A stretch of 64,000 bases of DNA, taken from the NCBI GenBank assembly GCA_008933995.1, contig WARS01000015.1:13021957-13085956 (forward strand), in the 5' to 3' direction. How positions within the stretch are numbered: position 1 is the first letter of the stretch; each line of letters begins with the position of its first letter. The stretch is from Datnioides undecimradiatus. Lineage: Eukaryota > Chordata > Actinopteri > Lobotiformes > Datnioididae. Position numbers and translations under genes: made by a program. Under the pieces are notes generated by a model. The model was not told the origin of the DNA, ran no database searches, and saw nothing but the letters and a program-made list of their open reading frames with translations. Shown here piece after piece: positions 27,672 through 57,049 of the stretch.

Positions 27672-27721
<50 letters not shown>
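27672..27721 (+). repeat. Compound (GT)n(GA)n microsatellite
   Basis: About 19 GT units (27672-27710) run directly into five to six GA units. It is among the longest dinucleotide tracts in the window. Confidence 0.9.
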
Positions 27722-27723
<2 letters not shown>

Positions 27724-42200: not shown

Positions 42201-44115
42201 ATTTCATCGCAGCGGAGCGCAACTGGCCCAAGACCAGCCGCTACAAAGCACTTAAAAATAACTAGAGCTACAAGAAAAGTATCAAGATCTTTATTGACAT
42301 ATCCTGCCAGAAATAAAGCGAGCCACTTTAAAGTTTTTGCCAGAGGCACACAACCATAAAAAGTGTATCCTGTGTGGGAAGCTGTGTCTTTGACACACAT
42401 ACAAACACAATCCTAAAAACCACAGTTGCCATGGAACAATGTGAGGGGGCAGAGGAGTGTGTCTCTCTGTCTTATTCGACCGTGGCCCTCAAGTTGGCAC
42501 CACAGGACAGCAGGCCAGAGCAAACAGCTGCTGCGTCTTAGTGCTAAGTGGCTTTTGGACTCTAACCGTGTCTGGCATCTCAGCCAGAGCTGCAGAGTGT
42601 GTATGTGTGTGTTTGTCAGAGAGGAATGACAGGGATACTGAGAGTACATGAGGGCTACAAGGACTGTGTGTGTGAAGAAGAGAGAGACCTGCATTCAAAA
42701 GAAAGAAATGGCAACAGACAGATGAGTGTGATATTGCGGGCGACTGGCTCCGAGCCTGCGGCCAGGTTAGCTGTCCTGCACACTCAGGTGTGTGCTAGGG
42801 GTCGTCCCGAGGCCACGGCAATGCCAGTAGGGTGTCAAGCCGCAGGGCTTGTTGTAAAGACGCTTCAATGCTGGACTGAACTGGCTGTGTTTTGGCGTTG
42901 TTCTCCACTTCTGTTGCAGCATGCTGGCCTTCAAGGAGAGAAAAGCTGTCTGATCAGTGGGTGTTTTTGTTGATGCGCGTATCTGCGCGCGCATTAGCTC
43001 AGCCGCTGTTTATCAGCATGGATAAGAAGAACAAGAAGGCTGGCAGATCAGCTTGTGTTTTGATGCAGACGGCTGCGTGACTCACCACGTCGCCCTCATC
43101 ACTCTCTTCTCACTCTTTTGCTTTTTCATGCTTTTTTCCCCTCTTCTCTGTGCAAAGACCTCACTGAAGCTGAGAGCCTTGATAACAGAAAGAAAGAAAA
43201 TTGCCGTAGTTTTACACTCCGCGGTCTCCAGAATGTTTTGTTAAATTGCAGCGAAGCCACAATAGTGATTGATTTACAATGGCGGCTTTTGTTCGATACA
43301 GATGAGGCTTGTTTTTTCCTCAGAGGTTTTAAAAGAAATCTTTTCATAGCAGAGCCATAAAGATGCAGGATATTGATAAGACAATTTTCCCCTGTGCCTG
43401 TGCTGAAAAATGATGGGGCTTAGTTCCTTTCAGTTGAATGTGGTGAATTGAAAGTCAATTTTGGGTTGTTTAAATCAAGGCAGCCAACATCGGCAGCTTT
43501 AGCAGAATGTTGGAGGCTAATGTCAGAGTAACTTTATAAACTTCATGGACTTTTACTTTCTCTTCCCTTCCACAAGAAAGGTGCTGCTTTGCCTTTGAAT
43601 ATTCTAATATTAAGATTACTATAATATAATGTTTTTGTCTTTTTTTAAAAACATATTTTTAGTACAATTTTACAAATATTCATTACATCAATTTCTTTAT
43701 TAGCCTTTGGAATCAGATCAAAAAGTGAAAATGAAGAAAGTTAAATGGTCAAAACAAACCTGAGCACTGAGTAATCCAGCCGCCCTTGCAGTGTGAAGGG
43801 GGTAAAAAGAAAAAAAACACAAGCTAACTCTTTAGCTTCCTCTCCACCTGCCCCTTGCCCTAAACACCCTGAACAAACACTTTCAAACACCGCAGCATGG
43901 AGGGAGGCATAGAAAGAGAAATTGAAAAAGAGAGGAGGAGTGGCAGGGAGAGAAGAAAAAGGGGGAGGGAAAAAGCTTGTGAGGCACGGAGCGCTCAGGG
44001 GCCTGCCTCTTGGGCTCTCCTTTCATGTTTGTGTACGCCTCAACTTGCTGATATTATCTTGGCCGCTCTTCCTGGCGGGGTGTCGGGAGAGGTTTCCACT
44101 GTGACCAGGCAGGGG

Positions 44116-44132
44116 AGATGTGTATAAGAGAC

Positions 44133-44134
<2 letters not shown>
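44116..44134 (+). other. Exact Tn5/Nextera mosaic-end sequence (probable artefact)
   Basis: The 19 bases AGATGTGTATAAGAGACAG are identical to the Tn5 transposase mosaic end used in tagmentation libraries. The insert side (after GACAG) is the (CT)25 tract. The upstream bases are not the usual read-1 or read-2 adapter arms, so only the mosaic end is present. A chance match of 19 bases in 64 kb on either strand is expected fewer than one in a million times. It is best read as untrimmed adapter built into the assembly. Confidence 0.93.

Positions 44135-44184
<50 letters not shown>
44135..44184 (+). repeat. (CT)25 microsatellite
   Basis: Fifty nt of perfect CT begin directly at the mosaic-end sequence. 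Length and even local continuity are doubtful because of the adjoining adapter. Confidence 0.85.
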
Positions 44185-44187
<3 letters not shown>

Positions 44188-45433
44188 CCCTCCTCTCAGG
44201 CTGAGTTGGATCCCTCACCCACCTTCCTTCTGCATCCAACCTCCCAGAAAAAAGTCCCTCTCCTAAATCACCGCTTCACCACGTTTCACGGCGCACTGAG
44301 GCGCCCAGGATCCCACTGCGCTCGTTTCCATGGTCACTGGGAAGCTCCTTGTGTCATGTGGCTCAAAGTGAGCCGTCCCTGGGCCGAATTACCCAGCTTT
44401 CAATGGGAGGCCAAATGACCATTATTAGACTTCACAGCTCAGGCCCCTATTTAAAGAGAGAAGAAAGGAGCCCCAGGGACTTAAGATGAGAGAGAGATGG
44501 AGAGAGAGGCTGAAGAAGAAAACAGAGAGCAAAGAAGAGAGGACGGGAGATGAGGGGAAAGAGAAGAAAGTTCACTTAGAGCCGCCGTGTAGTTGTTTCT
44601 TTTTTATTTTCCTCCACCCTTACATTTTTCTTAATCACGATTGGTATTTGAAAGTCAGACACCAGCCACAAGTAAAGCTCTCCTGTCTGTCAAACAGCAC
44701 CCAGAGAAGACGGGGCGGCGCTGGATCAAAAGCCACGCCGTGGAAAAAGTAAATCTTAGAAAAGATAGGACCAGACATCCACCCACGTCAACCAAAGCCC
44801 TGTCTTTTCTCTCTTCATCTCCGTCTAAGCCCGTTGCTTTGTAGGGGGAATGTGCTTGTGTGCGTGAGAATCCTCGTGTCCTGCGCCCCGCTGTGTATGT
44901 CAGGGCCTTGTTGTCTTTAAGGCTCGGGGCCCACAGCCTGGCACGGAAACTGGAAACTGAAGCCCCCTGGTCCCCACACAGCTAATCTGATGCCTCTTCC
45001 CACCACAGATGAGTCCTCTCGTGGAGGGTTAGCGGGGGTGAAAATGTCATCCTGCTCTTGTGGTTAAGACTTTCTTTTATGCTCCGCCAGGGAGGCAAGG
45101 TTGGGCCCAGCACAAGGAGATGGAGAAGAAAGGGGAGGGAGGGGAAGGCATATGAGGGTGACACTGGAGCTGCCCATGCTCTGAGACAGTGAGGTAATGG
45201 GAGGAGAGAGAGAGAAACATGGAGACAGAGAGGGGCGGAAGAATGGCAGCACACCTGGTAGAAACTAAGCTAAAACATTAGCATCGTTTATCGGAGACCG
45301 ATATAATGATGAAATTTAGGCGAGACATCTGCATGGCAGTTGTCCACGGTTAAATATTGCCTAAGATTAAGGCTTTTTTTCTTTTCTTTACATTTGAATA
45401 ATGTTCAATATCTTGAATAAGTGATTTTTTTAG

Positions 45434-54513: not shown

Positions 54514-57049
54514 ACATTCGCAAAGCAAGAAGTAGTTTTCCTTCCTTCGGTGTCCGAGGTTGTAGGGTTTTTTGTTTTTTTTTACAGGGTTGGGAAGGAG
54601 ATGTGTCATGTTTTTTAAGAGAGCCAGTTTGCCTGTGGGTGCATTTTTGTTGTCGTCAGGCAAGTCCCTGCACTGCACAGCGCAGGCCTGCCTGAGTGGA
54701 GATTCTTTAGGAGGGAGATCTCTTTCTTCTCAAAGCGTCTTACCAAGAGCTATTAATTATTAACTGGGAGAGCTAACATCAAAGGAGCAGACTTGTGCTG
54801 AATTAAATGGGGGCTGGAGCCTGGCAGTGAGGAGCTGAGAGGGAAAACTGGGTGAGAGGGAAAAGCCGAGCGAGATTTCGCTTTTGAACTTTCCAAGTAC
54901 AAAAAAAGTGGAAGAAGAAAGAAAAGAGCAATGTTAGTTTATGTAAAGGAGGCAGGACGAAAGAGAGAGTTGGTAGAGCTTGTGTTTATAGCGCGTTGCT
55001 GTCTTTTAATGTTTCAGTGTTTGACAAGGCTTGCATACACTGCTGGGAAAGATCGAATCAGTTTGCAGGGTTAATTAGTCTTTAATGAGCTATGAAAGCC
55101 AGATTCATAAACATCTTATCTGTGGATTGAACCAGGGGGAAATCTAATTGAGACGTAGCTCAAACGCTTTCAGAGTCATGACGCGTTTACATTTTCCTGA
55201 AGCTGGCTTGCGCTCACAGTCGACTTCGCAGAGTGTGGCACATATGCCACCCGTCACATTAAAGGCCTTTTGTCGGTTTGCTTCTCTTTTCCTCCTGCTG
55301 TGACTTGTCCGTGCAGCGGTCGTCCCACCGAAGGTACCTGCAGTGCAGAAGACCCAGGCTGTGCTGCAGACTCTAAAAATCAAATCTAGACTATATTTAG
55401 CATCATTATCGACTGTGCTGTTGACAGTTATTGATCCTGGACAGTCCAAATACCTCTGTTCCTCCTCTTGCTTTGTAGGTAAAAGCCTGCTATAAACGAT
55501 AAAAGAAGGCTGGTATGTATATTAGATTAAAATGTTAAGTAAAGTTGAATCCAAACTAACTTCAGCTACACATGCTGCTTTAATCATTAACCTCTTTCTA
55601 AGGACTCATAGTACACACACGGAGCAGGGAAAATGTCCGAGGGAAAAGGGAATTTCGCAGTTAACAAAACTGATACGCATTACGTTGGATGCAAAAGAGT
55701 TTAGGAAATCAGCACTCATTCGTGATGAACAGCAGGAAATGACTAACAGAAGCCCAATGAGCCCAAAGCTGCAGGACGCAATTATTGTAAGTGAGGTTGT
55801 GACAGACGCGCAAACAAGAGCAAAATTAACAGAAGAACATGAGGAATGTGGACGCTTGCATACAGGGGACGAGGAGTGAATAGTTTGCTAAGTGTAAAAA
55901 AGGGTTCCAGTCACGTGCTGTGGCCTTTAGCCGACCGACACAATTGAAGAAAATACCTGAGCGCACAAATTTCGGAACGACGGAGCTCTCTGCCGCCATC
56001 AAAACACAAGATGAGGGAGTAACATTCATCTGTCCTGTACAGACTCTGCGTGAAGGAGCAGTGAAGCTGTGCTGGCAGCTAACGGACGGCCTCCGCCTCA
56101 CGGAGACTTTCTGTACATTATGTAGAAAATCAAAGCTGCACAAGTGTTTACAGCGGTGATGGGGCCAATTCAAAATCGCTTCCTCCTTCCCCTTCGGACC
56201 AAAGAGGAGAGTCTTGCTCAACATTCCACTGTTGAGTGTTGTTATCTCAGAAATCGACGTGATGTGTTGTGAAAAGTGTAATTGCGCCTCCATCCTACAC
56301 ATACCACCTCTTCTCTGTGTGTCCTCTGTAAGTGCCCGCTGACACTCTGCAGCCACTCAGCAGCAGAGTCACAGCGCTGTTCATTGTCACTTTGATCTTC
56401 AACCCCCCCCCAAACAGTTATGAAGAGCGCTGGCAAGAACCCAAGGGCACTTGATAATACCAGGATATGATCCCAGCCACTCTATTTTAGATCATGTAGT
56501 GCAGACATCAAAACGTTGTCTAAATAGGGCACCGCGAATCAAGCGGGGTGAGAGCGGGTTGTAGGAGAAAGCAGCAGCTGAGATAAAGGAGCTCTTTTTT
56601 TTTTTTTTCGACGAGTGGAAGCCAATTTGGATTCTGCGAGGAGATACGTGGGGTTCTGCAGATCCGAGCATTTCCTTTATCTTTTGCCTTTAGCAGAAGT
56701 CTTCAAAAGATCTCTGTGCTCCGACTTTTCCTGCTCTCACATGAAAGGAGCTCACATTTTTTTTAGCAGTTTGGAAAGCCATGATAACTTTATTCAACTT
56801 TTCCTGAGCGTGCGCACCAGAATTCGAGTTGCATCACGCAGAGCCGCGCGTGCATTAGTTCTTGACACAGGGATGAAACCGTTCCAGTTGCTGTCATAGT
56901 ATTAGCGCAATGTGGCGCAGATTCACAGAGAATGACATCATGAGGACTTCAGAGGGATGGAGACACAGACCACATGTGCGTCTTAGCAAATGTTATCAGT
57001 GGCTTGTTTGCTCCTTCGCTTTCCCGTTTGCTCATTCCAGCTGATCTGT

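Follow-up and report, generated by a model that had tools for sequence, protein, structure and literature searches.

A probable leftover tagmentation adapter beside a CT repeat in a 64-kb genomic window

The window considered here (the whole 64-kb stretch of DNA that was analysed) contains a 19-base sequence, AGATGTGTATAAGAGACAG, whose letters are exactly those of the Tn5 mosaic end (ME) engineered for Nextera-type libraries. We are close to certain that this site is a tagmentation adapter left behind in the assembly, whatever the type of library that it came from. Very probably we are dealing with an adapter remnant rather than with genome, an ordinary technical artefact and not biology.

The initial annotation described the site as an exact 19/19 match to the tagmentation mosaic end that abuts a perfect (CT)25 tract. 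Both parts of this description hold. The match is complete on the plus strand with zero mismatches, and no second copy of the 19-mer is present in the window at up to 3 mismatches (both strands, 64 kb). The tract starts directly after the ME (Table 1). The same annotation put the expectation by chance at about 5 in 10 million, a figure that we could reproduce: with uniform bases, 4.7e-7 exact matches are expected per window. When the site is masked and Markov models of order 0-4 are trained on the remaining window sequence, the expectation is 5.8e-7 to 2.4e-6.

Table 1. Features at the site, in window positions
Feature	Positions	Strand	Basis
Tn5/Nextera mosaic end (ME), 19 bases, bare	44116..44134	+	exact match to the ME in the available text of PMC4248319 and PMC3046479
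(CT)25 tract, insert side of adapter, true length uncertain	44135..44184	+	Tandem Repeats Finder
putative false junction, left genomic flank/adapter	44115..44116	.	ME orientation

The 19-mer and its surroundings

The natural ends of Tn5, as we take them to read, fit the window sequence less well than the engineered one does: the 19-mer agrees with the outside end at 16/19 bases and with the inside end at 15/19, against 19/19 for the ME. An exact mosaic end would therefore point to a reagent as its origin, and not to a transposon that resides in the genome. In the available part of PMC4248319 the ME sequence is given by the oligos Tn5MErev, Tn5ME-A and Tn5ME-B. The window copy is the same as these oligos across all 19 bases, but it lacks the upstream A or B arm of Tn5ME-A and Tn5ME-B. 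The 19-mer is also familiar from sequencing data. According to the accessible portion of the SKESA paper (PMC6172800), which names it a known Illumina adaptor, 219 of 5000 random read sets were trimmed, and in 199 of those 219 it was the commonest suspect k-mer.

The mosaic end is described in the available text of PMC3046479, where its reverse complement is printed, as a 19-bp hyperactive derivative that is sufficient for transposition. Since the ME alone suffices as a transposon end, one might think of a real Tn5-type insertion or of a Tn5-based transgene. However, there is a single end in 64 kb, and its inverted partner was not found at up to 3 mismatches. Nor was a 9-base target duplication found: for the 9-mer that adjoins the ME on its left, no further copy is present on either strand of the window. 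A Pfam scan of 20 of the 232 listed open reading frames (10 of the longest and 10 at 41-45.3 kb) also gave no match above cut-off. With one end only in the window, the insertion was rejected; we consider it extremely improbable. An Atrophin-1 match in the same scan was sub-threshold (14.9 bits vs a cut-off of 29.9) and was ignored.

The CT tract is 50 bases long, with 25.0 copies at 100% perfection according to Tandem Repeats Finder and with no gap after the ME. It is the longest among the 11 perfect dinucleotide tracts of at least 20 bases in the window and lies on the GACAG side of the ME. The sequence on both sides of the site is genome-like, the adapter side is not visible, and the window has no N bases. 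Over 100-250 bases, GC is 0.54-0.55 in the left flank and 0.56 in the right; over 500 and 1000 bases, it is 0.43 and 0.41 on the left and 0.50 and 0.53 on the right. No 14-mers are common to the 116 bases on either side of the site and the rest of the window. These GC and 14-mer data neither mark nor exclude a break between the flanks. Such repeat similarity as there is around the site is mainly CT/AG-rich.

Could the 19 bases be truly genomic, either a chance sequence or a repeat-derived equivalent of the ME that happens to stand beside a CT microsatellite? Across many large genomes a chance copy somewhere is not impossible, given that the window-trained Markov models predict 0.009-0.037 exact ME copies per Gb. 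Nearby stretches are rich in purines, as is one piece of the ME, AGAGACAG, and both an arm and a gap are missing beside the window copy. Yet per window the same models predict the 5.8e-7 to 2.4e-6 copies given above, and here the full 19 bases are exact and adjoin a repeat, when the longest fragment of the ME elsewhere in the window has 10 bases. When as many as 3 mismatches were allowed, a match turned up in 2 of 100 dinucleotide shuffles. We regard a genomic origin as very improbable.

To the left of the ME, neither an i5 nor an i7 arm was found, with 4/14 and 7/15 bases matched, respectively; the 7/15 for i7 include a terminal GG that is contiguous with the ME. Such an arm is typical of a tagmentation remnant, though a remnant that has been trimmed need not show it. 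Fourteen oligos were compared with the window on both strands. Three of them include the ME (the complete i5 and i7 adapters and the mate-pair junction); the others are 10 further adapters or linkers and one phiX control piece. None of the 14 had a full-length match in the window, and there was no second adapter trace. Among the 11 oligos that lack the ME, the SMRTbell adapter shared the longest stretch of identity with the window, 14 bases at 55283; its top ungapped score, reached at other places, was 28/45. We rejected this candidate as a chance similarity in pyrimidine-rich DNA.

Placement of the 19-mer in public collections

With the 19-mer as a probe, at least 127 matches were obtained in at least 120 stretches of IMG/VR and at least 133 matches in at least 119 stretches of GTDB contigs. 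The 260 matches listed come from prokaryotes and viruses, with no animals among them, and are not a random sample; distances refer to the ends of the stretches as stored. Among them, 246 (125 in IMG/VR and 121 in GTDB) lie within 100 bases of a stretch end with the adapter side outward, and all of these 246 carry the insert on the GACAG side. The opposite orientation at a stretch end was seen in none of the 260 matches listed. For two of the 246 (L052 and L059), contig ranges indicate that the stretch end is not a contig end. Of the 260 matches listed, 216 were scored as carrying an i5 or i7 arm (114 in IMG/VR and 102 in GTDB) and the other 44 were not. Bare MEs among the 260 include 25 that start exactly at the stretch end and 7 that have 1-3 bases ahead of them. 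In 259 of the 260 matches listed, the ME has an arm or an N run as its neighbour or stands at a stretch end.

Because 246 of the 260 matches listed sit near ends and face inward, and 216 are armed, the 19-mer is adapter-like: among the matches listed, it occurs as an adapter does. An adapter-bearing origin of the window copy had been proposed from the start. It is now supported both by identity with the engineered ME and by this adapter-like placement among the 260 matches listed. Two controls were run in IMG/VR. The natural Tn5 outside end, in the form that we take it to have, gave 0 matches, and the ME written backwards gave a single match, which was interior.

Interior copies are the closest comparators for the window. 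There are 14 of them among the 260 matches listed (2 in IMG/VR and 12 in GTDB), and for 13 of the 14 the 40 bases upstream include an arm or N run. Seven lie at N runs in scaffolds of NRRL actinomycetes (L130, L162, L183, L199, L215, L228 and L239). As in the window, the ME is inside the scaffold and the insert side is intact; unlike the window, where there is no N, they have an N run on the adapter side, separated from the ME by 1-4 bases. These seven come from five NRRL assemblies (P008, P011, P065, P205 and P265 'Doro1'). The 1-4 bases ahead of the ME in them, for example TCAG, fit the original Nextera arm as it appears in the available part of PMC3046479.

Six interior matches listed bear an arm (L005, L120, L160 twice, L198 and L232), and N bases are nearby in L005 and L232. 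Longer adapter chains precede the arm in L120, L160 and L198, at 101-480 bases from the contig ends; these chains include P5- or P7-like and index-like sequence. In contig_46 of Natronococcus amylolyticus (L158), a 16-base arm, TTGCCAGCCCGCTCAG, stands before the ME near the end and is part of the older Nextera adaptor, going by the available text of PMC3046479.

The only interior match listed that has neither an arm nor an N run is L192, in the MAG contig CAJXPN010000583.1. Like the window copy, its ME lacks a full arm and lies within a contig that has no gap. In L192, however, the three upstream bases, GTC, correspond to those of the i5 arm, and no dinucleotide repeat stands beside the ME. 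Among the 260 matches listed, the window copy, with neither an arm nor N beside it, resembles only L192, a point against the adapter explanation.

The neighbouring repeat has no counterpart among the 260 matches listed: in none of them is the ME directly followed by a dinucleotide of any kind repeated at least five times. Hence a link with repeats is no general pattern in the prokaryote and virus collections. A targeted scan for the ME followed by CTCTCTCTC found one further place, L241, at a contig end with an i5 arm and five CT units.

A possible course of events at the join

In a tagmentation library molecule, the DNA ahead of AGATG is an adapter arm or, in mate-pair libraries, a second ME. 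By the chemistry of the library, the DNA on the GACAG side is the tagmented target (oligos in the available parts of PMC3046479 and PMC4248319). Since the GACAG end joins target DNA, the false join should lie on the left of the ME, and in the library molecule it would have been the CT tract that was attached to the ME. We suggest the following. A read or contig end that started with ME-(CT)n would have been trimmed incompletely, its i5 or i7 arm probably having been cut off before joining. If assembly was halted by the CT repeat, the assembler or gap filler may have taken the untrimmed end to extend the sequence or to close the gap. The ME-(CT)n end would then have been joined in silico onto the left flank, ...CCAGGCAGGGG. 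Some bases, or part of the repeat, may have been lost at the site. Gap closing, a trimmed paired-end read and a mate-pair remnant would all be compatible with what is seen.

The bare MEs found at stretch ends among the matches listed mean that arm-trimmed ends exist for joining. The joining of such a bare ME end to another contig would yield the pattern seen in the window, and perhaps that of L192 too.

A more specific variant is that the window ME derives from a Nextera Mate Pair junction, one half of which would have escaped trimming and then been used in scaffolding or gap closing. This variant is nested in the adapter explanation and adds nothing to its probability. The ME in the window is bare, and mate-pair junction adapters are not known to carry i5 or i7 arms. 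A fish genome, that of the yellow drum, was assembled from Nextera mate-pair libraries with a gap-closing step, as stated in the available part of PMC6342179; the same text, however, has the mate-pair reads shortened to 50 bases so as to avoid the junction. A complete junction consists of two head-to-head MEs (38 bases), but in the window its second half is missing, the 19 bases to the left of the ME matching at 3/19. A whole junction at the site was rejected for this reason. Half a junction is a possible source of the remnant, though a doubtful one.

Use of the assembly and other window content

The 19-mer site is very probably not a real feature, and its relevance is one of quality control only. 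With a probable adapter remnant beside a CT repeat, the join is not to be trusted. If the junction to the left of the ME is false, the length of the CT tract is unreliable as well. Positions 44115-44184 should be masked, and the tract length is unfit for use, be it as a marker or otherwise. Trimming of ends would miss an adapter within a gap-free stretch, and the whole assembly, in which the fault may recur, therefore deserves a screen. Annotation may also be affected. An ATG within the ME opens a spurious frame of 28 residues, MCIRDSSLSLSL..., at 44118-44204, closed by a stop; it could pass for a peptide.

Elsewhere, no Rfam families were found in the window at gathering thresholds. The GC content of the window is 0.44 and its CpG observed/expected ratio 0.43, values that would fit a vertebrate. 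An ordinary compound microsatellite lies at 27672-27723, where (GT)19 passes into a GA tract.
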